From Streptococcus henryi DSM 19005 (GTDB lineage: Bacteria; Bacillota; Bacilli; Lactobacillales; Streptococcaceae), in the NCBI RefSeq assembly GCF_000376985.1, contig NZ_AQYA01000025.1, positions 1-64,000 of the forward strand: DNA of 64,000 bases. The letters run 5' to 3'. A program made the translations under genes and the position numbers. The notes below the pieces were generated by a model, which saw only the letters and a list, made by a program, of their open reading frames with translations, had not been told where the DNA came from and did no database searches. Shown here one piece after another: positions 3,263 to 62,949 of this stretch (within the stretch, counting starts at the first letter, position 1; the number at the start of each line of letters is the position of its first letter).

Positions 3263-3270
3263 AATCATAT

Positions 3271-24032: not shown

Positions 24033-27341
<3,309 letters not shown>

Positions 27342-27342
<1 letters not shown>

Positions 27343-28193
27343 TGAAAATAAAGAAACCTTTAAATGCTAATGCCATTCTAGTTGTTGATGAAGATAAGAG
27401 TGAGTTTATTCTTTTTGGCAAAGGAATTGGTTTTGGAAAAAAGGTTGGCGATGCTGTTGATAGCGATAATGTTAATCAAACCTTTATCCCTTTGAAAAAT
27501 TCTGATTTAAAAGAGTATCTTACGATTTTGGAATCCATTCCAGCAGAGCTCTTAGAATTGTCTAGACTGGTTATTATTGAGGCAGAAGAACGATTAAACT
27601 GTAACTTAAATCCAAGCATCTATTTCATGTTAAGTGATCACTTGAACTTTGCTATTGAACGTTTTAAGAGTAATATCAATGTGACCAATCGTGTTTTTTG
27701 GGAAATTAAAAATTTTTATCCACAAGAATTTAACATTGGTCTTTATGCTTTAAAATTAATCAAGAAAGAGTTTGGTTTAGTTTTACCAGAAGAAGAGGCT
27801 GCAAATGTTGCCTTTCACATCATCAATGCCCAAAGTTCTGCGGAGATGAAAGCAGATGGGATGAACTATGCTAAGCTCATCGCCTCTGTTAATAGCATTA
27901 TCAGATATAGCATCAATACAGATTTTGATAATTCTAGTGTTCATTATCAACGCTTTATTACGCATTTGAAATTTTTTGCTGAGCGCTTTTTCAATGATAA
28001 GATGCTAGATGATTCTAATCAATTATTTGAGCAAATCGTGCAACTCTATCCAAGGGCAACGGAAATATCATTTTTGATTAAAGACCACTTAGAGTTAGTT
28101 TATGCTAAAAAAATCAGCAAAGAAGAGATTGCCTATTTGGCTATTCATATCAATCGATTATTAAGTTCAGAGGAGATTTCAAAGAATTCTTAA
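27342..28193 (+). CDS. licT: BglG-family transcriptional antiterminator LicT
   Basis: A 283-residue RNA-binding antiterminator. N-terminal CAT RNA-binding domain (about 1-55, with N-A-N-A-I-L-V and F-G-K-G-I-G-F-G-K-K), then PRD1 and PRD2 with conserved His residues that respond to PTS phosphorylation. GTG start overlapping the bglA stop by one base. It should act on the RAT element before bglP. Confidence 0.93.
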
Positions 28194-28204
28194 TTGCCTT
28201 TGAT

Positions 28205-28437
28205 GCAGCTGATATTCTCAAGATTGCCATGATCAATCTGGACAAGGCTCTGACAGAAGGAAACTACAAGACTAAGATGATTCCAAGTGCACGATAAAAT
28301 CGTCCTTGAGGTGCCAAATGACGAACTGAAAGCAATACAAGACTTAGTTAAAGAAACCATGGAATCTGCCATTGAACTCTCTGTACCATTGGTAGCTGAT
28401 GAAAGCACAAGCCAGACTTGGTATGAGGCTAAATAAT
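28205..28437 (+). pseudogene. Duplicated, frameshifted 3' end of polA
   Basis: The segment matches polA 23525-23759 closely, from GCAGCTGATATTCT through the final W-Y-E-A-K codons, with a 2-nt loss near 28280 that destroys the frame and scattered substitutions. It lies directly after licT. polA plus the bgl operon plus this tail looks like the trace of an insertion by recombination at the polA 3' end. Confidence 0.92.
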
Positions 28438-28478
28438 AAGAAGCTTTATATTGATTTCTGGTGAGATAAGTAACATAC

Positions 28479-28509
28479 AAAAGCGCTTCTGACAAAGAAG
28501 CGCTTTTAA
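28479..28509 (+). terminator. Terminator after the bgl operon / polA remnant
   Basis: AAAAGCGCTTCT, loop GACAA, AGAAGCGCTTTT: a perfect 12-bp stem able to work in both directions. Confidence 0.85.
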
Positions 28510-28523
28510 TGTGGGTTGGAAAT

Positions 28524-28590
28524 AAAAAAGCAAGAACGTTGATAAATCAGCGCTCTTGCTTGGAGATTTGAAAAAGAAAAGTTTTAGGAT
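28524..28590 (-). ncRNA. CiaR-type small RNA (csRNA-like), copy A
   Basis: On the minus strand a CiaR-type promoter leads to a transcript of about 67 nt. It starts with an unpaired pyrimidine-rich stretch containing CAAATCTCC, complementary to a Shine-Dalgarno region, and ends in a hairpin (28528-28538 with 28551-28561) and a U-tract. The 5' half shares the 22-nt word centred on AACTTTTCTTTTTCA with copy B at 62.3 kb. Streptococcal CiaRH controls several such csRNAs. It is shorter than pneumococcal ones. Confidence 0.75.
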
Positions 28591-28596
28591 GGTTAT

Positions 28597-28629
28597 AGTA
28601 TACAAAGGAAAGCTTAAAGAAACCTTATA
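28597..28629 (-). promoter_or_regulatory. CiaR box and -10 for sRNA copy A
   Basis: Minus strand: TATAAG (28624-28629), 5 nt, TTTAAG (28613-28618), 10 nt, TATACT (28597-28602). This is the NTTAAG-N5-WTTAAG direct repeat placed 10 nt from the -10 as in CiaR-activated promoters; one mismatch in the first half. Confidence 0.75.
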
Positions 28630-28725
28630 CTTGATTTTTTTCTTAATAAAAAGCAAAATCTGATTTTATTACTATAATTGGATAATTAAAGCTCTTGTTC
28701 AACCTCTGCTTTAGTTTTGCATTTA

Positions 28726-28734
28726 TGATATACT
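28726..28734 (+). promoter_or_regulatory. Promoter of the CoA-binding protein gene
   Basis: Extended -10 TGATATACT, 26 nt before the ATG. Confidence 0.6.
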
Positions 28735-28760
28735 AGAGAAAATGTTTAGAGGAGGTTTAT

Positions 28761-29201
28761 ATGACCTATTCATTCCAGAATCCAAGTAAAGATGTCATTT
28801 ATGATTATATTCAAAATGCAAAGACAATCGCAGTAGTGGGACTCTCAAATCGTGAAGAAACTGCTGCTTACCGTGTTTCTAAACTCATGCAAGAGGCTGG
28901 TTATACAATTATTCCGGTGAATCCAAAGCTTGCGGGGACCCTTGTTTTAGGGGAAATGGCTTACGCTTCACTTCAAGAAATTCCTCTACACATTGATATT
29001 GTTGATGTATTTAGACGTAGTGAATTTTTAGCTGACGTAGCTCAAGATTTCATCCAAACAGATGCTGATGTTTTCTGGGCACAATTAGGTTTGGAAAGTC
29101 AAGAAGCAGAAGAAATCTTACGTGCAGCCAATCGTCATAAGATTGTGATGAATCGTTGTTTGAAGATTGATTATCTTGATATGATTGAAAACCATGCTTA
29201 A
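28761..29201 (+). CDS. CoA-binding protein (YccU/YneT type)
   Basis: A 146-residue Rossmann-fold protein of the CoA_binding_2 type. N-terminal A-V-V-G-L-S-N-R glycine motif at about 26-33 and a C-terminal N-R-C-L-K segment are typical. Function is unknown in the family. A strong GGAGG precedes the ATG. It lies upstream of perR with a separate promoter between them. Confidence 0.87.
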   Translation: MTYSFQNPSKDVIYDYIQNAKTIAVVGLSNREETAAYRVSKLMQEAGYTIIPVNPKLAGTLVLGEMAYASLQEIPLHIDIVDVFRRSEFLADVAQDFIQTDADVFWAQLGLESQEAEEILRAANRHKIVMNRCLKIDYLDMIENHA

Positions 29202-29233
29202 TTATTTTCTTTGGTTTGAAAATCACCAAAATG

Positions 29234-29242
29234 TGGTATAAT
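29234..29242 (+). promoter_or_regulatory. perR promoter (extended -10)
   Basis: TGGTATAAT upstream of perR, leaving a leader of roughly 80 nt. No convincing PerR box overlaps it. Confidence 0.6.
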
Positions 29243-29330
29243 TGGATTAATTGAACACTTTGAATAGTAGTTTCAGGTCTCGCAATAGGTTTGTTTTGTA
29301 TTTAAAGTGAAAAAATAAAGAGGGTAGAAC

Positions 29331-29795
29331 ATGGACGCTCATACACATCACCATCAAGCTTTAGATGCCTATGAAAATGTTCTAGAGCACCTCAGAGAAA
29401 AACATATTCGGATTACGGAAACCAGAAAGGCTATTATTGCCTATATGGTGAATAGCCGAGAACACCCAAGCGCTGAAAAAATTTATAATGACCTTCTGCC
29501 AGAATATCCTAATATGAGTCTAGCAACGGTTTATAATAATCTCAAGGTTCTTGTTGATGAGGGCTTTGTAACGGAATTAAAGCTTTGCAATTATAGCACA
29601 ACTTATTACGACTTTATGGGGCACCAACATGTCAACATCGTCTGTGAATCTTGTGGTAAAATTGCAGATTTTATGGACGCAGATGTGATTGATGTCTCTA
29701 AGGAAGCTCACGAGCAAACAGGTTATAAAGTAACCAAGATACAATTAACAGCATATGGCCTCTGTCCTGAGTGTCAAGCTAAACAAGGGAAATAA
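29331..29795 (+). CDS. perR: Peroxide-responsive repressor PerR (Fur family)
   Basis: A 154-residue metal-dependent repressor. His-rich N-terminus (H-T-H-H-H), winged helix at about 20-85, metal-binding H-Q-H-V region and two Cys pairs (C-E-S-C and C-P-E-C) for structural zinc. It senses peroxide and iron/manganese. A near-perfect PerR box lies at 35204-35218 before the iron exporter in this same window. Confidence 0.92.
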   Translation: MDAHTHHHQALDAYENVLEHLREKHIRITETRKAIIAYMVNSREHPSAEKIYNDLLPEYPNMSLATVYNNLKVLVDEGFVTELKLCNYSTTYYDFMGHQHVNIVCESCGKIADFMDADVIDVSKEAHEQTGYKVTKIQLTAYGLCPECQAKQGK

Positions 29796-29825
29796 TCCTT
29801 CTTCCTGGAAGGGTTATTTTTTTGC
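29791..29825 (+). terminator. perR terminator
   Basis: AATCCTTC pairs with GAAGGGTT (one G-U), then T8. Confidence 0.8.
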
Positions 29826-29895
29826 ACAGCAATTTTTGAGGGAAGAAAATTATTAGAAAAATTAAGGCAGAAAGCAGGAAAGAGAAGGATATTGG

Positions 29896-29924
29896 TTGAC
29901 GTTGCTCTGCCATTTTGCTAAAAT
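29896..29924 (+). promoter_or_regulatory. rpsO promoter
   Basis: TTGACG (29896-29901), 17 nt, TAAAAT (29919-29924). Spacer contains GCTCTGCCATTT as in the rpmH promoter. Confidence 0.85.
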
Positions 29925-29930
29925 ATAAGG

Positions 29931-30013
29931 AGCCTAAGGGCTAATAACTTTTTCTTGGTTTTAGGATATGCCAAAGCCTAGAACTCGGTTAAAGCAGAAA
30001 AAAGGAGAAAAAC
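29931..30013 (+). promoter_or_regulatory. rpsO untranslated leader, possible S15 autoregulation
   Basis: An 83-nt leader with complementary segments (AGCCTAAGGGCT hairpin, and TTTTAGGA able to pair with upstream CCTAA). S15 leaders often bind S15 for feedback control; whether this one does cannot be told from sequence alone. Confidence 0.35.
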
Positions 30014-30283
30014 ATGGCAATCTCAAAAGAGAAAAAAAATGAAATCATCGCACAATACGCACGTCACGAAGGTGACACTGGTTCAGTAGAAGTACAAGTT
30101 GCTGTCCTTACTTGGGAAATCAACCACTTGAACGACCACATCAAACAACACAAAAAAGACCACGCAACTTACCGTGGATTGATGAAAAAAATCGGTCACC
30201 GTCGTAACTTGTTGGCATACCTTCGCCGTACAGACGTTAACCGTTACCGCGAATTGATCGCTTCACTTGGTCTTCGTCGTTAA
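30014..30283 (+). CDS. rpsO: Ribosomal protein S15
   Basis: An 89-residue small-subunit protein that binds 16S rRNA. Conserved H-x-x-D-x-G-S-x-E-V-Q and R-R-x-L-L-x-Y-L-R motifs are present, and codon use is highly biased. AAAAGGAG precedes the start. Monocistronic with its own promoter and terminator. Confidence 0.97.
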
Positions 30284-30332
30284 GACAGGATTCAGAGCCG
30301 TTAGCAACACAAAGTGTTATAGACGAGTTCAA

Positions 30333-30367
30333 CTTAGCCCCCTGCATTGCAGAGGGCTTTTTTTAGC
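30333..30367 (+). terminator. rpsO terminator
   Basis: AGCCCCCTGC, loop ATT, GCAGAGGGCT, then T7. Confidence 0.88.
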
Positions 30368-30482
30368 CTTTTATCACGAAAAATTTGGAGCTCTTTGTAG
30401 TTGTGGAGAGTTTTCAGATAGAAAGTCGAGTTGGATACTGGTCGAATCAGAAGGATAGGTGCCTTTTAACGAGTCTTCCTTG

Positions 30483-31451
30483 CTACTTATTAAAGCCAAA
30501 TTGTTGAGTGTCAACCCAGTCCATGGAAAGGATTGACCAAAAATCTTCTGCCAAACCGTCTAGTACGTAGGCATAAGGAATCCAACCGTAGCCTTCCTCA
30601 CCCCATTCTTTTCCCCAAGAGTTTCGGATAAGTAAAGCGCCGGTCGTTGCTTCTTGGTTACGAGTATTAGTAATGAGTTTGTGGTCATCATAGCCAACTG
30701 CCATAACGGCATGTCCCCATTCAGCTTGTTCATTTTTACAAGGATAGGGAATGGAACCGGGTGAGTCTGAATCTTCAAAGGATGGGAAACCGAAGAAGCC
30801 AAACATAGAAGGTATGCCTGCAGCCAGATAGGTCTTTACTGTTTTTAAGACGTCTTCTTTGCCAATTTTCTTGCCCAAGGGATCGTGGCAAAAATAGTTG
30901 ACGGCAGAGTAGTGGTTAGCTAGAGAATAGAGAAAACTATCAGGTTCACTATCCCAGTCCGGATTGACAGTTTCACCATCAAGAGTATAGGGAAAATATT
31001 TTTCGTCTGGTACACCAAATAGGACCAAGGCTCCCATTGCGGAGCGTAGCCATGCACCAGAATCACCAGAGGATTGCATCAGTTTGCGCGTGGCTTTATA
31101 GACAAATAGTCTAGATCCATCGATATAGTCTCCGTAAGCTCTTTTTTGAAAATATTCAGCCATTCCAACAGCAGCATTTGCTGTACAAGAGCCCAAAGTT
31201 AACTGATCTTCCACAGGTGAGCACCATTCTCTTAAATCCACAAAATTAGGTAAATCAATGTGAGCTTGTCCTCCATCAATACCTAATTTCATTGTCAATT
31301 CGGTGATAAGGGGATGATCATCATCATAATCTCTCATATCAGGAAAAGGAGGTAGCCAGCCCGTGGAAAGTGGTTCGCCTTCTTTACCTCCTTTTAAAAA
31401 TCTTTTGACATTATAGGTATTATAGACCTTACTTGAGGGAGTTGCAGCCAT
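30483..31451 (-). CDS. Papain-like cysteine protease (C1), cytoplasmic
   Basis: A 322-residue protein of the C1A peptidase fold. The active-site set is complete: Gln83 and Cys89 in Q-L-T-L-G-S-C-T-A, His247 in W-G-H-A-V, Asn277 in R-N-S-W-G. There is no signal peptide and no visible inhibitory propeptide, so it should act inside the cell or be released by lysis. It lies 12 nt downstream of a trypsin-nuclease fusion gene in one operon. Protease pairs of this kind occur in bacterial conflict and programmed-death systems; this role is inferred. Confidence 0.88.
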   Translation of the reverse strand: MAATPSSKVYNTYNVKRFLKGGKEGEPLSTGWLPPFPDMRDYDDDHPLITELTMKLGIDGGQAHIDLPNFVDLREWCSPVEDQLTLGSCTANAAVGMAEYFQKRAYGDYIDGSRLFVYKATRKLMQSSGDSGAWLRSAMGALVLFGVPDEKYFPYTLDGETVNPDWDSEPDSFLYSLANHYSAVNYFCHDPLGKKIGKEDVLKTVKTYLAAGIPSMFGFFGFPSFEDSDSPGSIPYPCKNEQAEWGHAVMAVGYDDHKLITNTRNQEATTGALLIRNSWGKEWGEEGYGWIPYAYVLDGLAEDFWSILSMDWVDTQQFGFNK

Positions 31452-31463
31452 AATTGTACCTCC

Positions 31464-33215
31464 TTATAGTTTGATATGTTCTGGTGCCTCAATGACATGA
31501 CCAACAGTTTCTCTGTCTTTAATTGGGTCATGCAAATAGAGGTTACCAAAGTCTAAGCCAGTAATGTCTTCAATTGATGTAACTGGAACCTGATAGGTCT
31601 TGTATTCACCATAGGCAAATTCTAGATTATCAATCATATTTTTCTGAGTTTGGAGATAGGCGGTTGCTGATATTTTTCCATCATCTCTAACCATGACAGC
31701 AACCTTCCAAAATTCAGCAGGTATCCTGAATTTTCCACGGTAAACCATGTCATCGCTTCGAAAGACGGGTCCAGTAAAAACAGTAACCTTAAGGTTATGG
31801 TTAATGGCATTTTGCATGATGTAGTTCTCCAAATCAAGCCAAATCTTTTGATTGAGGTTCTTGTGCTGAGGGGAGCTATTTGTGAAAACGAAAGTGTCAT
31901 CATTAGCTTGCTGAGCCTTGTCACCCCAAACAGGATCTAAGCGTCTTACAAGGTGTCCGCGGTCCAAGTCATTTTTAGCATAGAGATCATTACCATATTG
32001 GACGCTTTCAGGGATTCTAGGGTCAAATTTCCAAGAATCTCCACTTCTCTTGATGTTAACGGCTTGATTACCGTCAATATTAACAGCTGTAAAATAGGCT
32101 AGGCAACGTGAACGACACATGACAATTGAAAAGTGAGTATAGTCTAGAACGTAGTTATTATCTTCCATGCGGGAGACATCGTTCTCCATTTCTTCAGAAA
32201 GTTTAGGAAGTTCTACAATATAATTCGAACCTAAGAATGATTTATCGTATCCGTCTGCTTGGCTTGAAGAAGATGGGCCAGGTTTTAGATTTGGGAAAAC
32301 TTTGGTTAGAATTCTCTGTTCAGTGGCGGAGTAAGAAACATAATTCTCTGAAATATAGGTTGAAATAGCACTGATTCGAATACCTTCATTGCCTACCCAT
32401 GCATTTTTCTTATTAGGGTCTGGAACACCAGAATGGTGAAGAGCTACAACCACCCACTGGTCATTAAAAACAGGCGAGCCTGAAGAACCTGGTTCGGTGT
32501 CGGTCAAGTAATGGATAAAGTCATCAAAGATAGAACTGACCTTATTTTCTCGAACAGTGACCGATTTAGGTCCCCCTTTTGGATGTTGGATAATGGATAC
32601 ATACTCACCTTCAAGAATTTTTCCTGCAGTAGGAATGAGTTGGAGATGCCCGAAGTCTGTAGGTTGTTTTTCACTGGAAGGATTATCTTTGACAGCTACT
32701 AGTGTAAAGTCTAAGTCTTTATCTGTGATGAAAAATTGCTCAGGATCCAAGCGAAATGTGTGAGTAGGGCAGGGCATAAAGTTTTCGTCATCTTGATAGT
32801 TGAACTCAGCAATAGAATCTAGAGCTGTTTCTAAAGAATCAAGGACATGATTATTGGTCATTAGGATGTTATCTGCCACCAAAAATCCTGTTCCATAGCC
32901 AAGTGATCTCCCTCTAGCATCTCGAATTTGAATTCGGCAGATTGATTGACCAGCATTAAGCCCAATTTGTAAATAGGAGATAGGGAAAAGGTCGCTTGTC
33001 CCCAAAATACGCTCTAAAGCAATAGAGTCGTAATCATCCAGAACCCGTCTTCTTGATTTGAGAGCTGGGCTCTTCAAAGTCATGGTTTCAAGAGAAGAAG
33101 CCTTCTGCGAAGCGCTTTCAAAAAATCGTTTAGAAGCCTCTTCTTGAATTTGAGCCTGTCTGGCTTCCAATTTTTCTTTGGAAATACCCTCTTGTTCAAC
33201 AATACCTCTTAACAT
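31464..33215 (-). CDS. Trypsin-like protease fused to DNA/RNA non-specific endonuclease (NUC1)
   Basis: A 583-residue fusion. The N-terminal 60 residues are charged and helical and could be an adaptor. Residues about 80-300 form a chymotrypsin-fold protease with His123 (N-N-H-V), Asp169 (D-L-D-F) and Ser245 (G-S-S-G-S-P). Residues about 330-580 form a NUC1 nuclease with D-R-G-H at 418-421 and the downstream N-S-S-P-Q-H and N-L-N-Q metal-site segments. No signal peptide. Strong AAGGAGGGA ribosome site. The promoter and a hairpin leader lie upstream, and the papain-like gene follows. Confidence 0.88.
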   Translation of the reverse strand: MLRGIVEQEGISKEKLEARQAQIQEEASKRFFESASQKASSLETMTLKSPALKSRRRVLDDYDSIALERILGTSDLFPISYLQIGLNAGQSICRIQIRDARGRSLGYGTGFLVADNILMTNNHVLDSLETALDSIAEFNYQDDENFMPCPTHTFRLDPEQFFITDKDLDFTLVAVKDNPSSEKQPTDFGHLQLIPTAGKILEGEYVSIIQHPKGGPKSVTVRENKVSSIFDDFIHYLTDTEPGSSGSPVFNDQWVVVALHHSGVPDPNKKNAWVGNEGIRISAISTYISENYVSYSATEQRILTKVFPNLKPGPSSSSQADGYDKSFLGSNYIVELPKLSEEMENDVSRMEDNNYVLDYTHFSIVMCRSRCLAYFTAVNIDGNQAVNIKRSGDSWKFDPRIPESVQYGNDLYAKNDLDRGHLVRRLDPVWGDKAQQANDDTFVFTNSSPQHKNLNQKIWLDLENYIMQNAINHNLKVTVFTGPVFRSDDMVYRGKFRIPAEFWKVAVMVRDDGKISATAYLQTQKNMIDNLEFAYGEYKTYQVPVTSIEDITGLDFGNLYLHDPIKDRETVGHVIEAPEHIKL

Positions 33216-33384
33216 AAAAATCCCTCCTTACACAAGATACAAAGGCCATTTACCTGATGAATGGTGACGGTTACCTTGCTCCTCGTCACCAAATGAAACT
33301 GTTTTTGGGCACTTTCTTGGTGTGACCAATAGGTTTGAGTTGATTGGTTACTTTTATTATATTAATATCGTGTGAAAATTACAA
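33216..33384 (-). promoter_or_regulatory. Promoter and structured leader of the protease-nuclease operon
   Basis: Minus strand: TTGTAA (33379-33384), 17 nt, TATAAT (33356-33361). The predicted leader of about 135 nt begins with a hairpin (33343-33351 with 33322-33330) and has a second one (33284-33290 with 33263-33269). Such folding close to the start could control stability or translation. Confidence 0.6.
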
Positions 33385-33594
33385 ATTTTATGAGAAGAAT
33401 AATAGAATTTTATTGCAATTCTGATGTATGATACTTTATTGGGGTTTTTGTTGCTTCTTTCAAGAGTGGGAGTTGTAGCTCTTAAGCGTTTAGAAAAGCA
33501 GGCAAATCTTTAATATGTACGATTAAAGACCATTTTGACTCACAATGTCAACTGATGAGATAGCGTCTTTAATGCCATCAAAGGTATGTTATTA

Positions 33595-33623
33595 TTGCTA
33601 TGTTACTTAAAATTAGGTATACT
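33595..33623 (+). promoter_or_regulatory. Promoter of the MFS transporter gene
   Basis: TTGCTA, 17 nt, TATACT (33618-33623). The stretch 33385-33594 between this and the divergent promoter shows no gene. Confidence 0.6.
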
Positions 33624-33648
33624 GGGAAGAAAAAAATGAAAGAGAATT

Positions 33649-34830
33649 ATGAAACATACCCTTGAAAAAATGAGTCTTTTGGGGCTATCCTTTATGTTGG
33701 TGTCTACATTTGCCATCTCGCCACTTTTGCCTCAAATGATTGCTGATTACACTGCGCGTGGCATCTCTAACAGTCAGATTAATATGTTGGTTTCTATACC
33801 ATCTTTTATTATAATGGCTGTTGTTTTAGCAGGTCCTCTTTTGGGCAAACTGATATCTGAAAAAACGGTCTTTATTATGGGCCTCATTGGCATTTCTTTA
33901 GGTGGAAGTCTTCCAGTGCTGACACAAGCATATTCTTGGGTTCTTTTATCAAGAATTATCTTGGGTTTGGGTATTGGTTTGATTAATGAAAGAGCCATTA
34001 CAATTGTAAGTCAGCATTTCTTTGGTGCTGAACGTACAAAAATGTTAGGATTTAGAGGATCTATGGAGGTTCTAGGTTCAGCCACACTAACTTTTTTAGC
34101 AGGTCAGCTTCTAAAAATATCTTGGTCTGCTGGATTTTTAATTTATAGTATTGGTTTGCCAATTCTTATTTTTTATCTTGTTTTTGGCAGTAAAAATGAG
34201 GTAAAAGAAAGCAAAATAAGTGATTTTCCACTAAAGAAGCGAGAAAAACTCACAAGAAGTCAACTGTCTCGTCTCCTTTTTCTGGCAATCTATGCTGGCT
34301 CTGTTATTGTCATTAACACCGGAATTACTGTTCGTCTACCTCTTCTCGTTGAGGAACTCGGACTTGGAACAGCAGTTGATTCTAGTCTAGTGCTAAGTCT
34401 CATGATGCTTATGGGAATCCTTGCTGGTACCCTTTTTGCCGCACTAACCAACTATTTTGGGAAATACCTTCAAGCTGTAGTTCTTTTCTTATTAGCTTTC
34501 GGTCTTATTTTCATTTGGCTAGCACCTAATTTGATTATTTTGGCAATAGGTACCCTGACAACAGGATTGGTTTATAGTATAGGAGTGACTTCTGTCTTCC
34601 ATAAATTAACAGACTTTCTGTCAACTCAGCAACTAGCATTAGGGACTACCCTTGTCTTGCTTGGTTGTAATTTAGGAGGAGGTCTTGCAGCATCTGTCAT
34701 GTCTTTCCTAGTTGATATGACGGGTGGGGGAGCAAATGCCTTTTTGATTTTGGCAATACTTTGTGTGATTGCGGGTATTATTTTGCTTAGCTCTCTTACT
34801 TATAATAAAAATTCTAATAATCAAGTCTAA
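33649..34830 (+). CDS. MFS transporter
   Basis: A 393-residue integral membrane protein with about 12 hydrophobic segments and the loop 2-3 pattern G-x-L-x-x-K (G-P-L-L-G-K-L-I-S-E-K). It resembles major-facilitator drug or metabolite exporters; the substrate cannot be read. Single gene with its own promoter and terminator, divergent from the protease-nuclease operon. Confidence 0.82.
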   Translation: MKHTLEKMSLLGLSFMLVSTFAISPLLPQMIADYTARGISNSQINMLVSIPSFIIMAVVLAGPLLGKLISEKTVFIMGLIGISLGGSLPVLTQAYSWVLLSRIILGLGIGLINERAITIVSQHFFGAERTKMLGFRGSMEVLGSATLTFLAGQLLKISWSAGFLIYSIGLPILIFYLVFGSKNEVKESKISDFPLKKREKLTRSQLSRLLFLAIYAGSVIVINTGITVRLPLLVEELGLGTAVDSSLVLSLMMLMGILAGTLFAALTNYFGKYLQAVVLFLLAFGLIFIWLAPNLIILAIGTLTTGLVYSIGVTSVFHKLTDFLSTQQLALGTTLVLLGCNLGGGLAASVMSFLVDMTGGGANAFLILAILCVIAGIILLSSLTYNKNSNNQV

Positions 34831-34861
34831 AATTACTTCTTAGAAAAACAGATAAAATACG

Positions 34862-34892
34862 GCAGTAACTCTATTAGTTGCTGTTTTTTTAT
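34862..34892 (+). terminator. MFS gene terminator
   Basis: CAGTAACT pairs with AGTTGCTG (one G-U), then T7. Confidence 0.8.
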
Positions 34893-35011
34893 AATCTTTT
34901 AAATCTATTAATACTCAAAAATATCAAATTCAAGCAAGGTAAGCTGACAAAGGATAGCTGGAGATGGGGAAAGAGGCTTAACGATGTATCATTTTAATTT
35001 TCAAAGTGGAT

Positions 35012-35135
35012 AGTCTTTTGAATTAGCTTTGATGCCTCGACACTACCGGCTTGTCTTACTCTAGTTGAGAGAAAGAAATTTCAACGTCTAGGAGTCTATA
35101 CCTCTATTCCTTGTCTGAAAGCTCTTTATCGGACT
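35012..35135. repeat. MITE-like repeat, copy 1 (decayed)
   Basis: Outer bases AGTC...GACT with TTTGAATTAGCTTTGA on the left and TCTGAAAGCT on the right. The interior aligns with the 100-bp element at 37794 apart from a replaced central part. Confidence 0.6.
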
Positions 35136-35203
35136 ATATAAATGTGACTAGTAGTTGATTGTGGTAATCTCTAGTCATTTGTTTTATGTTTTAGGGTTCT
35201 TAA

Positions 35204-35218
35204 TTATAATGATTCTAA
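35204..35218 (+). promoter_or_regulatory. PerR box
   Basis: TTATAATGATTCTAA matches the 7-1-7 PerR consensus TTATAATnATTATAA at all but one position. It sits just upstream of the -35 zone of the exporter promoter (-10 at 35246). Confidence 0.75.
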
Positions 35219-35242
35219 TTTCTTTGTTTTAAATATCCGACA

Positions 35243-35251
35243 TGTTATAAT
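35243..35251 (+). promoter_or_regulatory. Extended -10 of the fetAB-like operon, 6 nt before the ATG
   Basis: TGTTATAAT ends at 35251; ATG is at 35258 with no Shine-Dalgarno before it. A leaderless mRNA is predicted. Confidence 0.7.
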
Positions 35252-35257
35252 ATTCTC

Positions 35258-35899
35258 ATGATAGAATTTGAATTAAAAAATCTGGGATTGTCTAACTCAG
35301 AGAAGGTTATTTTAGATGATATAAATTTAACTATTGAGAAGGGGAGCCACTTGACTATAACGGGTCCTTCGGGTAGTGGTAAAAGCAGCTTACTGCGAAT
35401 TTTAGCAGGCTTAGTTTCCTACAATAAAGGTAGCTTGCTTTTCCAAGGTCAGGATTTAAAAGATATGGATCCTGTACTTTATCGCAGACAGGTTTCTTAT
35501 TGTTTCCAACAACCTGTTTTATTTGGTCAAACAGTTCGAGATAATATGATATTTCCATTTGAAATTAGAAATATCTCTTTTGATCAAGAAAAGGTTTTAT
35601 CTGCCCTTAGCCGCTTGAATTTAGGACATGAATTTTTAGATAAACCTATCAAAGAACTATCAGGAGGCGAGAAGCAGAGGGTTGCTCTAGTGCGTAATCT
35701 TCTTTTTGAACCACAAGTTCTCCTTTTAGATGAAGTTAGTTCAGGTTTGGATGAAAAGACTAAAAAATTAGTTCGTACTTTTCTGAAAGAATTGAATAGT
35801 AATGGAGTAACTCTCATCGAGGTAACACACGACCAGGCTGAGCTGGAACAAGCTGAGCAACTGTTGAAAATTGTTGGTGGGAGGTTAGCACATGACTAA
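35258..35899 (+). CDS. fetA: ABC transporter ATPase (FetA/YbbL type, iron export)
   Basis: A 213-residue ATPase. Walker A G-P-S-G-S-G-K-S at about 39-46, signature L-S-G-G-E-K-Q-R, Walker B L-L-L-D-E-V (Val in place of Pro). Its partner is a FetB-type membrane protein overlapping by 8 nt. FetAB exports iron and supports peroxide resistance in E. coli. The PerR box upstream fits this. No ribosome site is visible, consistent with leaderless translation. Confidence 0.8.
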   Translation: MIEFELKNLGLSNSEKVILDDINLTIEKGSHLTITGPSGSGKSSLLRILAGLVSYNKGSLLFQGQDLKDMDPVLYRRQVSYCFQQPVLFGQTVRDNMIFPFEIRNISFDQEKVLSALSRLNLGHEFLDKPIKELSGGEKQRVALVRNLLFEPQVLLLDEVSSGLDEKTKKLVRTFLKELNSNGVTLIEVTHDQAELEQAEQLLKIVGGRLAHD

Positions 35900-36668
35900 C
35901 GTTGACGTTTCCTATGTGTCACTTTTATTGGCACTTAGTTTAGTTATGGTAGCTGTAGTCATCAGCAGCAAGGAAAAATTAGGCTTAACTAAAGACATTG
36001 TAGCCAGCGTTATTCGAACGGTTATACAATTAACAGTTGTCGGTTATCTTCTTTATTATATTTTCGATCTAGATAATGTTTTGATGACTTTAACTATGGT
36101 CTTGATTATTATTTATAATGCTAGTCGTCAGGCTGATAAACGTAATCCCAATAGTAAGAAGAAGTTTTTCCAATCCTTTTTAGCTATTTTTTTAGCAACG
36201 AGTTTGACTTTATTAGTCCTCGTTTTATCGGGAGCTATTAAATTTATTCCATCTCAGCTTATCCCTATAACTGGTATGATTGCAAGTAATAGCATGGTAG
36301 CTATTGGTCTTTCTTATCGTGAAATGAACAGTCTTTTTAGGGATCAGCGTCAGCAGGTTATGGAAAAACTAGCTCTTGGTGCCCCTGTTAAACTTGCTAG
36401 CGCTAGCATTGTCCGCCAATCAATACGAACAGCAATGCAACCGACTATCGATTCAGCTAAAACAGTTGGTTTGGTTAGTCTGCCTGGGATGATGTCAGGT
36501 CTTATCTTTGCGGGAGTTAACCCGATATTTGCAATTAAGTATCAGATAATGGTTATGTTTATGCTTCTGTCAGCTACTAGCTTAGGTGCGGTTATTGCAG
36601 TTTACTTGTCTTATACTAATTATTTTAATGACAGAGCTCAATTGGATTTTGAAGAGGAGAAAGAGTAG
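35892..36668 (+). CDS. fetB: Iron export ABC transporter permease (FetB/UPF0014)
   Basis: A 258-residue membrane protein with about seven hydrophobic segments and the UPF0014 core pattern around G-M-I-A-S-N-S-M and L-P-G-M-M-S-G. It overlaps the ATPase gene (GAGGTTAGCACATGAC), so the two are co-translated. Acts with FetA. Confidence 0.85.
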   Translation: MTNVDVSYVSLLLALSLVMVAVVISSKEKLGLTKDIVASVIRTVIQLTVVGYLLYYIFDLDNVLMTLTMVLIIIYNASRQADKRNPNSKKKFFQSFLAIFLATSLTLLVLVLSGAIKFIPSQLIPITGMIASNSMVAIGLSYREMNSLFRDQRQQVMEKLALGAPVKLASASIVRQSIRTAMQPTIDSAKTVGLVSLPGMMSGLIFAGVNPIFAIKYQIMVMFMLLSATSLGAVIAVYLSYTNYFNDRAQLDFEEEKE

Positions 36669-36732
36669 TTAGAGCTCATTTCTCACAAAAAACTCGATTT
36701 ATGCTACACTATGTAAAAAGGAGGTAAGAGTT

Positions 36733-36972
36733 ATGATTTGGTCAATGTTAATTGGAATTTTAATTGGAGCAATTGCAGGTTCAATCACAAATCGTGGTGA
36801 GTCAATGGGATGTTTCACGAAAATGTTTGCTGGATGGGTTGGATCTTCAGTCGGGCAGGCGCTTTTTGGATATTGGGGACCAAGTTTGGCAGGAATGGCC
36901 TTGCTTCCATCTATCTTAGGAGCAGTTATTGTTATCGCTGTTGTTGATTTCTTCTTTGGAGGAAGACGTTGA
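36733..36972 (+). CDS. GlsB/YeaQ/YmgE family stress-associated membrane protein
   Basis: A 79-residue protein with three hydrophobic, Gly-rich segments (I-G-A-I-A-G, then two more) typical of Transgly_assoc proteins. Function in the family is unclear; some members are stress-induced. AAAGGAGGTAAGAGTT precedes the ATG. Confidence 0.85.
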   Translation: MIWSMLIGILIGAIAGSITNRGESMGCFTKMFAGWVGSSVGQALFGYWGPSLAGMALLPSILGAVIVIAVVDFFFGGRR

Positions 36973-37030
36973 ATCTAATTCAGATAAGAGTCATTTACGA
37001 GTTTAGAAGTCTTTAAAAATGACTATATAA

Positions 37031-37089
37031 AAAACGAATGATTAATGGTTAAGACATTGCTTTTTAACCTAATCATTCGTTTTTTTTTA
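37031..37089. terminator. Bidirectional terminator between GlsB-like gene and xpt
   Basis: AAAACGAATGATTA pairs perfectly with TAATCATTCGTTTT, with an inner GGTTAA/TTAACC stem and T-runs on both strands. Convergent genes flank it. Confidence 0.9.
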
Positions 37090-37168
37090 CTTGTCTGAAC
37101 TGATGAAAGAATCTGATTCCAGAAGTCTATCAGGAGAAATTTTAGTGATATTTTTTGATACCAGTGTT

Positions 37169-37750
37169 TTAGGCGTCAGCTTGGGTAAAGACGACTTGTC
37201 CATTTTCAAATTTTTCGATACGAGCAAGAGAAGTGACCTCAACGCCAGAATCGATGAGCAGCTGACGGCCGTCCTGAAATGATTTTTCAATGATGATGCC
37301 TACACCAACAACTTGGGCACCAGCTTGTTTGATAATGTCAATCAAGCCTTTAGCAGCTTGGCCATTTGCCAAAAAATCATCGACGATGAGGACCTTGTCC
37401 TCAGCAGAAAGGAATTTGCTGGCGATAGAGACGGTGCTAGTCACCTGCTTGGTAAAGGAATAGACCTCAGCAGTCAAAATGCCTTCTGTCATAGTGATGT
37501 TTTTGTGTTTCTTAGCAAAAATCATTGGCACATCTAAGCATTCAGCCACATAAGCAGCAGGGGCGATACCAGATGCTTCGATAGTAACCACTTTAGTGAT
37601 ACCTTGGGAACGGTATTTGTCGGCTAGAACCTTAGCCATTTCTTTCATGAGTTTGTAGTCAACCTGGTGTGTGAGGAAAGAATCGACCTTGAGGATATTT
37701 TCGCCCAATACATTGCCGTCTTTTAAGATACGTTCTTCTAAAAGTTTCAT
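37169..37750 (-). CDS. xpt: Xanthine phosphoribosyltransferase
   Basis: A 193-residue salvage enzyme that makes XMP from xanthine and PRPP. PRPP-binding motif [11 protein letters not shown] is at about 124-134. Start ATG with GGAG ten bases before. It is divergent from pbuX and not in one operon with it, unlike in many streptococci and bacilli. A 100-bp inverted-repeat element lies in its leader. Confidence 0.92.
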
Positions 37751-37793
37751 GTGGTCTCCTTGAATTTTAAATTGAAAATAGTTTTAAGGTATC

Positions 37794-37893
37794 AGTCATT
37801 TGAATTAGCTTTGATACATCGTCACTATTGGCTTGCCGTACTCCAGTACTGTCTGCGCCTCTGTTCCTCGTCTGAAAGCTAATTCATTTGACT
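37794..37893. repeat. MITE-like repeat, copy 2 (100 bp, in the xpt leader)
   Basis: Ends AGTCATTTGAATTAGCTTT and its near-complement; TGAATTAGCTTT (37801-37812) pairs perfectly with AAAGCTAATTCA (37875-37886). The core CTTGCCGTACTCCAGTACTG is shared with copies at 40.5 and 46.8 kb. Confidence 0.75.
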
Positions 37894-37895
37894 AT

Positions 37896-37904
37896 ATTAT
37901 AGCA
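37896..37904 (-). promoter_or_regulatory. xpt promoter (extended -10)
   Basis: Minus strand TGCTATAAT directly abuts the 100-bp repeat. Transcription should start inside the repeat, which then forms the xpt 5' leader. Confidence 0.6.
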
Positions 37905-37979
37905 TGTACGCCTAAACAAGAAAATAGTTTCAGGAACAAAAGTAATTAAAAGCATTGTTTTTGATGAGTTGATTTATTC

Positions 37980-38012
37980 AAAAGCGAACAATAAACATAT
38001 TTTTTCGAAAAA
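37980..38012 (+). promoter_or_regulatory. Paired PurBoxes before pbuX
   Basis: AAAAGCGAACAAT matches 12 of 13 positions of the PurR box AWWWCCGAACWWT. A second core TTTTCGAAAAA follows 21 bp later. The same spacing occurs before the nuclease gene at 55 kb. Confidence 0.65.
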
Positions 38013-38045
38013 TAAACGGATTTTATTGCTTTTTCTTTTTCGGTC

Positions 38046-38054
38046 TGATAGAAT
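38046..38054 (+). promoter_or_regulatory. pbuX promoter (extended -10)
   Basis: TGATAGAAT, 41 nt before the ATG. Confidence 0.6.
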
Positions 38055-38095
38055 TGAAGTCTATTAAATGACTAATATGAATTAAAGAGGTTTTT

Positions 38096-39406
38096 ATGTC
38101 AAAAGAAAAGATTGTCGAAAATGACGACAAAATGCTTTATGAGATTGATGACAAGCCGCCAGTTGGTGTGACCATCCTTCTTGCCTTGCAACATATTCTG
38201 GCTGCCTTCGCTGGAATCATTGCAGTGCCCCTTGTAGTTGCTTCAGCCATTGGTCTCAGTGTGGAAGACACATCAATCATGGTGTCAGCTACTATTTTTG
38301 TCGCTGGGATTACCACCGTTATCCAGTCCAAAGGGATTGGCCCTATCGGTTCGCGCGTGTCAGGAATGATGGGGACTGACTTTACCTTTGCTAATCCAGC
38401 CATCAGCGTTGGTAGCAAGTTTGGAATCGCAGGGATTGTCGGTGCTACCATTGCAGGGGCTCTTGTTGAAATTATCCTTAGCCGTTTCGTCAAACCGCTC
38501 ATGAAATTCTTCCCGCCCCTCATCACAGGGACAGTTGTTGCCCTTATCGGTATTACCCTTATGCCTGTCAGCATGAACTGGGCTGCCGGTGGGTCTGGTG
38601 CAGAAGATTTTGGGTCTCTGGAAAACATCTCCATTGCCTTTGTTGTCATGGTCTTTACTCTTTTGCTTAGTCACTATGGCAAGGGCATGTGGCGTACTGC
38701 ATCGGTTTTCATTGGTATGATTTTTGGTTACATCCTTTGTATTTTCCTCGGTAAAGTGGACTTGGCAGAAGTTGCTAATGCCTCTTGGTTTGCTCTTCCT
38801 AATATTTTCCGTTACGGTGTGACTTTTGATTTGTCATCTATCCTTTCCTTCATCCCAGCCTACGTGGTTTCACTCATTGGTACAGTTGGTATCATGATGG
38901 CCATCGGCGAAGCATCAAATGTTAAGGTTGATAGCCAACGTGCCGCTAACGGTGTCTTGGCAGATGGTGTCGGTTCCCTTATCGCCGGTGTTTTCGGTGC
39001 TGGACCTAACACAGCCTTTTCACAAAACGTTGGTCTCATTACTCTGACCAAGGTTGCCAGTTGTCACGTCATGATTGTCGCGGGATTGATTCTTGCCGTC
39101 TTGGGTGTCTTACCTAAATTATCAGCCCTCATTTCAATCATGCCTCAGCCAGTGCTTGGTGGTGTCGGTGTCATCATGTTTGGACTGGTAGCTGCTCAAG
39201 GGATTAAAACACTGTCTCAAGTTAAGATGGGTGACCGCGAACTCCTCATTATCTCAGTTGCCTTTGCCCTCGGTATCGGCGTAACCGTCTTGCCAGAACT
39301 CTTGTCAGAACTTCCAGAAGCCATTCAAATGGTCTTGTCTTCAGGTATTTCTACCGGAACATTGGCTGCGCTTATCTTGAACATTGTGCTAAAAGAGAAA
39401 AAATAA
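38096..39406 (+). CDS. pbuX: Xanthine/purine permease
   Basis: A 436-residue nucleobase:cation symporter-2 protein with about 12-14 membrane segments. The NCS2 segment Q-N-V-G-L-I-T-L-T is near residue 305. It imports xanthine for use by Xpt. Single gene followed by a hairpin terminator; paired PurBoxes lie upstream. Confidence 0.92.
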   Translation: MSKEKIVENDDKMLYEIDDKPPVGVTILLALQHILAAFAGIIAVPLVVASAIGLSVEDTSIMVSATIFVAGITTVIQSKGIGPIGSRVSGMMGTDFTFANPAISVGSKFGIAGIVGATIAGALVEIILSRFVKPLMKFFPPLITGTVVALIGITLMPVSMNWAAGGSGAEDFGSLENISIAFVVMVFTLLLSHYGKGMWRTASVFIGMIFGYILCIFLGKVDLAEVANASWFALPNIFRYGVTFDLSSILSFIPAYVVSLIGTVGIMMAIGEASNVKVDSQRAANGVLADGVGSLIAGVFGAGPNTAFSQNVGLITLTKVASCHVMIVAGLILAVLGVLPKLSALISIMPQPVLGGVGVIMFGLVAAQGIKTLSQVKMGDRELLIISVAFALGIGVTVLPELLSELPEAIQMVLSSGISTGTLAALILNIVLKEKK

Positions 39407-39414
39407 AGTATAAG

Positions 39415-39442
39415 GCATCAGCTACAGAGCTGGTGCTTTTGA
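39415..39442 (+). terminator. pbuX terminator
   Basis: GCATCAGCT, loop ACAG, AGCTGGTGC, then TTTT. Confidence 0.75.
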
Positions 39443-39563
39443 ATGAGAAAGGTAAGATTTTGGATATCCGCGAACTAGGTTTTCATTTGATATGTAATTG
39501 AATAGCCGAATTCTTTTTATAGTCAAAATTCTTAAAAAATATGCTCATTTTTTTATAAAAGTA

Positions 39564-39572
39564 TGTTATAAT
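39564..39572 (+). promoter_or_regulatory. Promoter of the FNT channel gene
   Basis: Extended -10 TGTTATAAT, 32 nt before the ATG. Confidence 0.65.
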
Positions 39573-39604
39573 ACCTTGGATTATAATTTCTAGGAGTTTT
39601 GAAA

Positions 39605-40405
39605 ATGAAGGATTCAAACAGTGCTTTGATTGAAAGCCTGGCTACGTCTATTGAAAAAAAGGATAACCTTTCACGTTACAATTATACTAAGTATGCTGTT
39701 CGTGCTATGCTGGCAACGATGTTCTTAACATTGGGAACAGGGATTGCATTTTTTATTTCTGCATACGCAGACAGTATCGTTCCTCACTCAGGTAAATTTT
39801 TCTTTGCCTTCATGTTTAGCTGGTCACTTGTTATGATCGTTTACATGAATGCTGAGCTTGGGACATCTAACATGATGTATATGACAAGTGCCGTTTACCA
39901 TAAAAAGCTTCGCTTTTTGACAGCTGCTAAAATCTTGGCCATTTGTATTGCTTTTAACTTTATTGGTGCAGTCATTTTCGCTTGGCTTATGTCTCAGACA
40001 AACGCCTTTAATAACATGGCTCCAGATAGCTTCCTTTTTGAAGCTGTTACGGCTAAACTAGCCAAAACTCCTTGGGTACAGTTTACAGAAGGTATCTTTG
40101 CTAATATCGTTGTTAATACAGCTGTATTCGTCACCCTCCGTATGAAAGATGACGCAGGAAAAGTCTTCTCAATGATTTTTATCATCTTCATCTTTGCCTT
40201 TCTCGGATTTGAGCACGTTATCGCTAACTTTGTATCCTTCTCACTTGCTTTTTTTGCAAATGGTGGACCAGTTGAAGGTATGAATATCGGGTCAGTTCTC
40301 TCTAACTTCCTCTTTTCAGGACTTGGAAACTACGTTGGGGGTGGACTTATCATCGGTCTTCTTTACAGCTGGCTCAACAAAGACAGCGAAATCTATGTTG
40401 ACTAA
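39605..40405 (+). CDS. Formate/nitrite transporter family channel
   Basis: A 266-residue FNT-family membrane protein with six membrane segments. The start at 39605 was chosen because AGGAG lies eight bases before; a TTG at 39599 is too close. FocA-type proteins carry formate from pyruvate formate-lyase, and streptococci make formate this way. The substrate is inferred from family only. Confidence 0.83.
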   Translation: MKDSNSALIESLATSIEKKDNLSRYNYTKYAVRAMLATMFLTLGTGIAFFISAYADSIVPHSGKFFFAFMFSWSLVMIVYMNAELGTSNMMYMTSAVYHKKLRFLTAAKILAICIAFNFIGAVIFAWLMSQTNAFNNMAPDSFLFEAVTAKLAKTPWVQFTEGIFANIVVNTAVFVTLRMKDDAGKVFSMIFIIFIFAFLGFEHVIANFVSFSLAFFANGGPVEGMNIGSVLSNFLFSGLGNYVGGGLIIGLLYSWLNKDSEIYVD

Positions 40406-40468
40406 AATAGTAAAAGCACTTCTGGCGAAGTGCTTTTATCTTTCTACAAAATAGACTAGATTGTTTTT

Positions 40469-40567
40469 ACTCCTTCAAAATCAATATGATAGATGTCGGT
40501 TTCGACTTGCCCTACTCAAGCACTGTCTTGGTCTCATTTCCTCATCTGATTTTGATTTTATTTGAGT
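40469..40567. repeat. MITE-like repeat, copy 3
   Basis: Ends ACTC...GAGT with AAAATCAA on the left and TTGATTTT on the right. Core CTTGCCCTACTCAAGCACTG and CATTTCCTCATCTGA align with copies 2 and 4. Confidence 0.65.
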
Positions 40568-40568
40568 A

Positions 40569-41003
40569 TTATTCAATCTCAATGCGGTTTGGATTTTCCA
40601 GTTTTGGTCTATCCTCTTCTTTAGGAATGGTCAAGGCTAGAACGCCGTCTTGGAATTTTCCGCTAATATCTTCAGCTTTAAGGTCGTTTCCGACATAGAA
40701 GCGTCTAGACATGGTACCATAATATCTTTCCTGTCGAATAATTTTGTCTTGGTCATCTTTTTCTTCTTGCTGATGATCTTTTTTGGCAGTGATATTCAAA
40801 TAACCATTATCCAATTCAATGTGGATATTTTCCTTTTTAAAACCAGGTAAATCAATTTCCACATCGTAATGGTCGTCCATATCTTTGACATCCATTAGCA
40901 TGGCTCTAGTGGCACCTGGGTCAAAAAGTTCTTGATTGATATTTCTAAAACCATCAAAGTAATGATCAAAGAAATCATCTGAAAATAACTTAGGGACTAA
41001 CAT
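40569..41003 (-). CDS. Small heat-shock protein (Hsp20)
   Basis: A 144-residue alpha-crystallin domain chaperone holding unfolded proteins. ACD at about 35-130 with V-E-I-D-L-P-G-F-K-K-E-N-I and the C-terminal I-x-I tail (N-R-I-E-I-E). AAGGAGG precedes the start. The upstream gap shows a promoter but no CtsR heptads or CIRCE palindrome. Confidence 0.92.
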   Translation of the reverse strand: MLVPKLFSDDFFDHYFDGFRNINQELFDPGATRAMLMDVKDMDDHYDVEIDLPGFKKENIHIELDNGYLNITAKKDHQQEEKDDQDKIIRQERYYGTMSRRFYVGNDLKAEDISGKFQDGVLALTIPKEEDRPKLENPNRIEIE

Positions 41004-41118
41004 GGCAGATTACCTCCTTATATGAATTTCATTCTTTTCTGATGAGAAAAGAACTGCCTATTTCTAGTGAGAAGAAGATTCATCAACTATAATCTTCTTT
41101 TATTCACCTTATACCTTC

Positions 41119-41146
41119 ATTATATGCCTTTTAGAATTTCTTTCAA
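41119..41146 (-). promoter_or_regulatory. hsp20 promoter
   Basis: Minus strand TTGAAA (41141-41146), 16 nt, TATAAT (41119-41124). The gap 41004-41452 also holds the divergent pnp promoter and leader. Confidence 0.65.
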
Positions 41147-41344
41147 GGAAATAGCTGTTTTTGAAACAGATTTATTAGATGAATTTTGAGAGTCAGGAAT
41201 CTTTTAAGAAAAATTTTTTTGGGAGAATTCATGTCCCTGATTTTAGAAAAAATTCTTAATATCCATAAACCGAACAGTTGACAAAAAGTTGGCTGTTTTT
41301 CTTGTAAAATCATGTCAGAAGCTCAGCTATTTCCCTAAAAATAT

Positions 41345-41452
41345 GATAAAATAATAAAGATACTGAGTTTTATGCAAAGACGGGTTCATGACCTATCACG
41401 AGTCAGTCTTTGTAGAAAACAGAGTATCAAAATCAATCATTAGGAGTTTTTC
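41345..41452 (+). promoter_or_regulatory. pnp promoter and long leader hairpin
   Basis: TGATAAAAT (-10) is followed by a stem built of GATACT/AGTATC, TTTT/AAAA and CAAAGAC/GTCTTTG (41359-41381 with 41406-41428), separated by two symmetric 3x3 internal loops. The predicted transcript starts at the base of this stem. In E. coli an RNase III-cut leader hairpin mediates PNPase autoregulation. Confidence 0.65.
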
Positions 41453-55083: not shown

Positions 55084-55155
55084 GAGGATAGTCGCTTTAT
55101 GAAGTGATTTCAAGTCTCTTTGATATCACAAAAATGAAAAAGATTGGAGTTTTTT

Positions 55156-62946: not shown

Positions 62947-62949
62947 TCA

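Follow-up and report, generated by a model that had tools for sequence, protein, structure and literature searches.

A trypsin-NucA fusion and a xylellain-type papain-like protease encoded in one operon of Streptococcus henryi: a candidate proteolytic-cascade effector

Why would a streptococcus keep two proteases and a nuclease together in one operon, with no apparent means of exporting them? The question arises from the window analysed here, the whole stretch of 64,000 nucleotides (nt) at positions 1 to 64,000 of contig NZ_AQYA01000025.1 of Streptococcus henryi DSM 19005. An operon on its minus strand (30483-33384) encodes a trypsin-NucA fusion protein and, downstream of it, a papain-like protease of the C1 class. 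In a preliminary description, made from the sequence, this operon had been read as an undescribed system of anti-phage suicide or another conflict. The analysis reported here leads to a related reading, to which we give an even chance: the operon may be a cytoplasmic proteolytic-cascade effector of the NucA-trypsin (LypC-like) kind with a dedicated xylellain-type C1 partner. What appears to be new is the C1 partner; the architecture of the fusion had already been predicted or shown.

The two enzymes and their described relatives

The first gene of the operon (31464-33215), delimited by its open reading frame and its homologs, encodes the fusion of 583 amino acids (aa), and the second (30483-31451), assigned by its open reading frame and by fold search, encodes the C1 protease of 322 aa. 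They are separated by a spacer of 12 nt (31452-31463). The C1 gene has a ribosome-binding site that lies mostly within this spacer and overlaps the stop codon of the fusion gene; the junction is CTATAAGGAGGTACAATTATG. This overlap suggests coupled translation, and the two genes are probably co-translated. Open reading frames, spacing and Pfam domains agree with the arrangement first described, a trypsin-nuclease fusion and a papain-like protease encoded 12 nt apart. All features of the operon given below are on the minus strand.

Two domains were recognised by Pfam in the fusion, Trypsin_2 at residues 108-259 (32439-32894; expectation value E = 1e-22) and Endonuclease_NS, that is NucA/NUC1, at residues 342-558 (31542-32192; E = 2e-55). 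NCBIfam gave one weak match, far below the cut-off. The linker between the domains (residues 285-321, 32253-32363) differs widely in length among the aligned paired homologs. No Pfam domain was found in the charged N-terminal segment (residues 1-66, 33018-33215), which in the alignment is variable except for a short I...A...F motif (I23, A27 and F31). The catalytic residues named in the preliminary description, the triad H123/D169/S245 (placed by Pfam and by alignment with V8) and the DRGH motif at 418-421, are present. Together with N455 they were invariant in the six fusions that are paired with a C1 gene (see below), and also in a wider alignment of five rows, made up of the fusion of the window and four others. 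The nearest solved relatives of the trypsin domain were the staphylococcal SplE and the V8/glutamyl endopeptidases. T240 and H260, the latter one residue beyond the Pfam match, were likewise invariant in both alignments, and they align with V8 residues that presumably form the S1 pocket setting the specificity for Glu. This leads to a concrete prediction, namely that the fusion peptidase would cleave after Glu (or Asp). The nuclease domain was nearest to endonuclease G and to the structures 2o3b and 1zm8, labelled 'Nuclease', which we take to be Anabaena NucA.

In the C1 protein, the Peptidase_C1 domain (residues 67-291, 30579-31253) was found by Pfam with E = 7.5e-14, and there was no NCBIfam match. 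The residues expected from the preliminary description, Gln83, Cys89, His247 and Asn277, are in place; the first three were invariant among 42 C1 proteins, that of the window included, and Asn277 was conserved in at least 90% of them. The nearest relative was xylellain (PDB 3OIS), both by sequence (E = 5e-27) and by profile (E = 3e-45). The Foldseek comparison of the C1 model (predicted local distance difference test, pLDDT, 82.5) with xylellain gave E = 1e-20, a template modelling score of 0.75 on the target and a root-mean-square deviation of 5.5. The alignment with xylellain includes the segment that precedes the papain domain; in xylellain this segment covers the active site, although a literature search yielded no text confirming it. 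By its papain domain with the Q/C/H/N residues, its short N-terminal segment and its lack of a signal peptide, the protein belongs to the xylellain-type C1A peptidases.

Residues 1-66 of the C1 protein (31254-31451), its N-terminal segment, carry a basic motif at residue 16, followed by a motif of the type TGWLPP.PD.RD(Y/F). The latter occurs throughout the C1 family. The basic motif, [KR].F..G.K.G, is found at residues 13-16, right before the TGW motif, in all six paired C1 proteins, and among the 79 tabulated C1 loci it occurred only in the five paired ones; in this extra motif the paired C1 proteins differ from xylellain. The motif may serve for contact or for processing. A Glu-rich N-terminal site for processing by the V8-like enzyme was considered and rejected, as Glu counts fail to separate paired from unpaired C1 proteins. 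To our knowledge, xylellain has not been reported to act together with a nuclease.

The likely location of the proteins was examined by the maximum hydrophobicity of a 12-residue window within the first 45 residues, which is a heuristic and not a trained predictor. None of the 17 fusions exceeded a maximum of 1.54 and none of the 42 C1 proteins one of 1.47, against 2.1-3.35 in all five controls taken as exported (four proteins of the window and a lipoprotein-like nuclease of a Spirochaetes genome). This argues against export, and the fusion and C1 homologs look cytoplasmic. The lack of signal peptides first noted on the two proteins of the window thus extends to their homologs, none of which (0 of 17 fusions and 0 of 42 C1 proteins) has such a stretch.

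A core of a trypsin-like peptidase and NucA (Endonuclease_NS), here fused, is shared with System 3 of Kaur 2020, the NucA-trypsin conflict system, in which the two are sometimes fused and for which firing through a proteolytic cascade was predicted (PMC7159879). A follow-up in eLife places NucA-trypsin among the proteolysis-activated systems (PMC8195603). Most of the System 3 examples described come from alphaproteobacteria, and the parts include trypsin, subtilisin, EAD1 and STAND, of which EAD1 and STAND-bDLD2 occur in a subset of members. Its papain-like domain is an EAD1-associated peptidoglycan peptidase, whereas the partner found here is a stand-alone xylellain-type C1 protease (PMC7159879). 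No further Pfam domain above the cut-off was detected in the two proteins and no NACHT domain in the genome; neither search included a model for EAD1 or bDLD2.

The layout of the fusion, an N-terminal trypsin-like peptidase, a flexible linker and a C-terminal NucA-type endonuclease, is also that of LypC, which belongs to the CARD-NLR-like LypABC of Caulobacter crescentus (Nat Microbiol 2026; PMC13236601). According to that report, overproduction of LypABC is toxic, the peptidase serine of LypC is essential for lysis, the nuclease residues H471/N505 are dispensable for it, and the nuclease domain is missing in one Caulobacter species (PMC13236601). The likeness between the fusion and LypC rests on domain order and on published residue numbers, not on a sequence alignment; by these numbers the catalytic Ser and His lie 176 residues apart here versus 175 in LypC, and His and Asn 34 apart in both. 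Unlike in LypABC, no LypA or LypB gene was seen by eye beside the operon, where the C1 protease stands instead. Besides the fusion, the genome has a single Trypsin_2 gene, a frame of 409 aa on another contig, and no LypA-type CARD-trypsin-ATPase gene was seen next to the operon. The same holds for a LypB-type NLR-like ATPase, for which the genome-wide search covered NACHT and not the Orc1-like AAA+ type.

In Hachiman, AVAST and Canu, proteases activate pro-nucleases of the MBL fold (Tuck 2025, PMC12799240), a precedent for the principle of proteases activating nucleases. Protease and nuclease are a co-inherited unit there as they are here, and in those systems proteolysis triggers DNA destruction. 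Their MBL-fold nuclease is encoded by a separate gene and their trypsin-like protease forms fusions with other defence proteins (PMC12799240), whereas the nuclease here is an Endonuclease_NS fused to the protease, which sets the operon apart from the MBL-nuclease group. A PADLOC run on the peptidase domain matched RT-Protease (E = 6e-10) and, more weakly, LmuA models, which we count in favour of a cascade effector. A description of the fusion paired with a xylellain-type C1 protease was not found in the open-licence literature, represented mostly by abstracts. The claim of an undescribed system therefore has to be narrowed: the fusion is known from System 3 and from the layout of LypC, and the C1 partner was not found in print.

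Distribution and inheritance of the pair

Co-occurring homologs, for which the preliminary description had proposed a search, were found, and fusion and C1 genes adjoin in the window and in five further genomes. A scan of genome contigs yielded 517 relatives of the C1 protein, of which the best 80 were analysed and 79 are in the neighbour table (L081 had no matching open reading frame). By tblastn, the fusion matched at 7 of these best 80 loci. Five of them have the full fusion directly upstream on the same strand, and these are the five loci nearest to the C1 of the window; the match at L055 was to a lipoprotein-like NucA alone (see below), and a weak trypsin-only match was located on the opposite strand at L057. 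The five carriers are a metagenome-assembled genome (MAG) of Filifactor alocis, two Peptostreptococcaceae, one Tissierellia and one Anaerolineaceae MAG. Counted with the window, the pair is thus present in six genomes, the others being four Bacillota MAGs and one Chloroflexota MAG, among which single cases may be binning errors. Gene order is the same throughout, the spacers measure 12-19 nt, and the paired fusions are 48-74% identical to that of the window by tblastn, the Filifactor alocis MAG reaching 82% for C1 and 74% for the fusion.

In a tree of 17 fusions, hand-picked from the loci opened, the six paired fusions formed one side of a branch with support of 99/99; this tree contains three long branches, two of them joining, and the start of the Nonomuraea sequence was set by hand. 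A tree of 42 of the 81 C1 proteins likewise placed the six paired ones on one side of a branch, with support of 100/100, and the window and Filifactor were sisters in both gene trees. The nonsynonymous distances (dN) of the two genes, compared in 15 genome pairs, were correlated (r = 0.74, a value reached by 4 of 720 permutations), as expected of linked co-inherited genes. Between the window and Filifactor, dN was 0.14 for the fusion and 0.12 for C1 with synonymous sites saturated. Across the six paired genomes dN ranged from 0.10 to 0.43 and the synonymous distance (dS) was saturated except in one pair, where it was 3.1. Low dN together with saturated dS indicates that both proteins have been kept by purifying selection.

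The full pair is rare, and its distribution is that of accessory genes. In a survey of 335 genomes of the host family (read as Streptococcaceae), the fusion was matched in 24 genomes at E ≤ 0.001. The other 23 matched over residues 12-306, the trypsin side, only, with 21-34% identity, and the full fusion was confined to the genome of the window. C1 was matched at E 1e-8 in 3 of the 335 genomes; two of these matches span 53 and 93 residues only, which leaves one genome matched across more than one third of the length. With a full-length form in 1 of 335 family genomes, the fusion is not a housekeeping gene fixed across the family; fixation of the pair in all strains with a known housekeeping role had been named as a refutation of the suicide or conflict reading. 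A sample of 398 Bacillota genomes contained the fusion in 2 (E 1e-40) and C1 in 6 (E 1e-10), and both fusion carriers also hold C1. Without the genome of the window, one fusion carrier was among the five C1 carriers of 397 genomes (p ~0.013), which is weak evidence for co-occurrence.

Among 72,556 plasmid records, 239 matched the fusion, 34 of them over at least 80% of its length, with carriers that include Paenibacillus, Nonomuraea, rhizobia and Nostoc; 16 records matched C1. No relative was found in viral_contigs searched with both proteins and an alignment, and in 50,697 phage records the fusion was matched partially in 9, none covering 80%, and C1 in 2, one covering 80%. These searches gave no sign of phages carrying the pair. 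Single xylellain-type proteases have been reported from phages (PMC10380794).

A check for the fusion was made in 50 of the 80 C1 genomes at whole-genome level. At E 1e-30, 10 of the 50 were positive: five paired genomes, three with a full fusion away from C1 (Pelosinus propionicus and two Methanosarcina) and two with trypsin-like matches only. In genome G688, fusion and C1 are on different contigs.

Other genes accompany relatives of either protein. On Paenibacillus polymyxa plasmids (L021, 6629-7945; L197, 4623-5945), a gene of 438-440 aa lies 16-25 nt before the fusion. It is a possible partner in place of C1, the L021 copy has no Pfam match, and the deiminase-fold likeness that we presume for the protein comes from reading its sequence by eye. 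In eight Bacteroidota MAGs (L061, L064, L068, L073, L080, L088, L089 and L091), C1 follows a conserved gene, about 161-176 aa in length, which often overlaps the C1 start; the L068 copy is without a Pfam match, and by eye the L061 copy begins like a lipoprotein. In the Spirochaetes MAG L055 (7044-8909), a lipoprotein-like NucA with no trypsin domain directly precedes the C1 gene.

Leader, genomic site and other genes of the window

A promoter-like site, TTGTAA-17-TATAAT (33356-33384), is a consensus match only, and sites of this kind numbered 9 in the region versus 7.3 in shuffles. The leader of 115 nt (33216-33330) ends at the ribosome-binding site. It belongs to a dispersed repeat of which five copies were found in the genome, in the window and on contigs C8, C36 and C37. 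The copies sit shortly before unrelated gene starts, that of the window containing a GGTGACG...CGTCACC hairpin. Two of the other four precede a membrane-protein gene, one a DedA-like and one an scpB-like gene, names which we assign by reading alone. Folding of the leader was hardly better than that of shuffled sequences (z = -1.0; 33 of 200 shuffles folded at least as well). The folded leader had been taken as a sign of post-transcriptional control; as a dispersed repeat, it provides no evidence of operon-specific control, and that suggestion is not supported. A riboswitch was also considered and rejected, given the same z value, the four further copies and the lack of an Rfam match to the leader. 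The only Rfam match was the S15 leader near rpsO, below the gathering score.

The operon lies between rpsO and a gene for a major facilitator superfamily (MFS) transporter. The interval from rpsO to pnp is 11.2 kb here (30283-41453). In the 8 of 20 relatives that were opened, it was about 0.2-0.4 kb in four and 7.1 kb in one, and pnp lay outside the stretch fetched in three; the interval looks like a variable insertion spot. No signature of recent transfer was found by composition, the two genes having a GC content of 40.1% and 42.7% versus 39.4% for the window. PADLOC, run on 10 neighbouring proteins (25867-40405) with E up to 1e-5, matched two of them. These were an ABC-transporter ATPase (35258-35899; mad3 at 9e-29, mad8, AriA and AbiLi) and a phosphoribosyltransferase-like protein (37169-37750; ShosT at 6e-6). 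We read both as matches to shared generic domains and not as defence systems, so that the defence island that might have been expected was not recognised next to rpsO and the MFS transporter gene.

Further away, a phage-type tyrosine integrase (60726-61943, minus strand) stands right after a gene read as rpsI and probably marks an end of an integrated element. A protein of 1006 aa (55144-58164, plus strand) with DUF6359 and an endonuclease/exonuclease/phosphatase domain has an export-like start by eye and is probably a surface or secreted nuclease. Three consecutive genes (608-4512, minus strand), D-alanyl-D-alanine carboxypeptidase-like by eye, form a tandem set of paralogues. At 62359-63371, a CHAP-domain gene overlaps a short C-terminal fragment of glycosyl hydrolase 31 on the opposite strand, which suggests gene remnants.

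Proposed function and competing explanations

If the operon is a proteolytic-cascade effector, its working may be depicted as follows. At rest, the fusion would be held inactive by its N-terminal segment, by the linker or by a lack of oligomerisation, and the C1 protease by its N-terminal pro-like segment. A signal of infection or damage would free one protease to cut its partner or itself. Once active, the V8-like peptidase and NucA would destroy proteins and nucleic acids of the host or the phage, with cell arrest as the outcome, by abortive infection or another regulated suicide. The zymogen state, the order of the cascade, the trigger and the defence role are inferred. A cut by C1 between the domains of the fusion, as had been suggested, found no support in the alignment, in which none of the columns from residue 285 to residue 321 is invariant among the six paired fusions. 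Papain-like enzymes are loose in specificity, and the missing linker motif is thus no refutation of such a cut. Since the nuclease residues of LypC are dispensable for lysis (PMC13236601), a protease freeing the nuclease is one direction among several; the V8-like domain might instead trim the N-terminus of C1, or the peptidase might be the executioner, as in LypC.

The earlier suicide or conflict reading thus keeps its intact catalytic residues, its lack of an export signal, its organisation as one unit and an architecture known from conflict systems, and it loses the expected defence island. Several observations weigh against a cascade effector with a dedicated partner. No defence gene or sensor NTPase was recognised beside the operon, the NACHT search of the genome was empty at E = 0.001, and the integrase is 27 kb away. 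The fusion domains are joined without a conserved cleavage motif, the nuclease residues of LypC are dispensable for lysis (PMC13236601), and the AlphaFold model of the fusion, built from 6 alignment rows, was unusable (pLDDT 45). The neighbours of C1 are mixed in the 75 of 80 loci without the fusion, and in four genomes opened the fusion has no adjoining C1. The fusion can thus exist without an adjacent C1 gene, and the C1 partner is not obligatory.

Some of these observations would suit other explanations. The operon might be a LypC-type executioner, in which the peptidase domain carries out lysis or death, NucA is structural or accessory and C1 replaces the CARD-NLR regulator, perhaps serving the control of lysis in the release of phages or gene-transfer agents and not defence. 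The essential serine, the dispensable nuclease residues and the Caulobacter species lacking the nuclease domain (PMC13236601) speak for it, as does the residue spacing within one residue (176/34 versus 175/34). Yet a dispensable nuclease would not need NucA residues that are invariant in both fusion alignments. By eye no LypA/LypB-like gene stands beside the operon, the other Trypsin_2 gene being on another contig, nor is any phage-like gene seen among the direct neighbours, and we regard this explanation as unlikely. We are somewhat more doubtful about a module for turnover or stress inside the cell, whose unspecific protease and nuclease would degrade macromolecules in starving or damaged cells and not serve defence. 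The lack of recognised defence neighbours, the four genomes with a fusion but no adjoining C1, and the C1 relatives found beside ordinary genes across many phyla would be natural for such a module, but the patchy, often plasmid-borne distribution and the rarity of the fusion (2 of 398 Bacillota at E 1e-40) fit it poorly.

The 75 of 80 C1 loci with no full fusion alongside would also be accounted for by a chance operon, in which a mobile trypsin-NucA gene landed before a C1 gene to which it has no functional relation. Chance has little to recommend it, however, when the pair is kept in six genomes of two phyla in the same order with spacers of 12-19 nt, the paired copies are one clade in both gene trees, full fusions elsewhere were seen in 3 of the 45 unpaired C1 genomes searched, and C1 is present in the sole other fusion carrier among the Bacillota sampled. 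Very improbable, in our judgement, is an exported toxin, contact-dependent or of another kind, that acts on other bacteria. NucA-type domains do occur in secreted toxins, but the heuristic scan found no signal-peptide-like stretch in any of the 17 fusions, and by eye there is no immunity-like or secretion gene beside the operon.

The proteolytic-cascade effector may also be given a bolder form, which we put forward as speculative and hold with considerable doubt. C1, restrained by its N-terminal segment, would sense the infection directly and act as initiator, and C1 and a Glu-specific (V8-like) trypsin-NucA zymogen would activate each other. This would be a caspase-like immune cascade pared down to two proteins, with no NTPase as sensor. 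Should this form be true, a papain family widespread in bacteria and archaea would gain a role in cell suicide. Should the operon be a cascade effector in the more general sense, the prediction made for NucA-trypsin, mostly in alphaproteobacteria, would extend to a Gram-positive setting and be reduced to two proteins. The pair would also add to the recent finding that unrelated immune systems have repeatedly coupled proteases to nucleases (PMC12799240).

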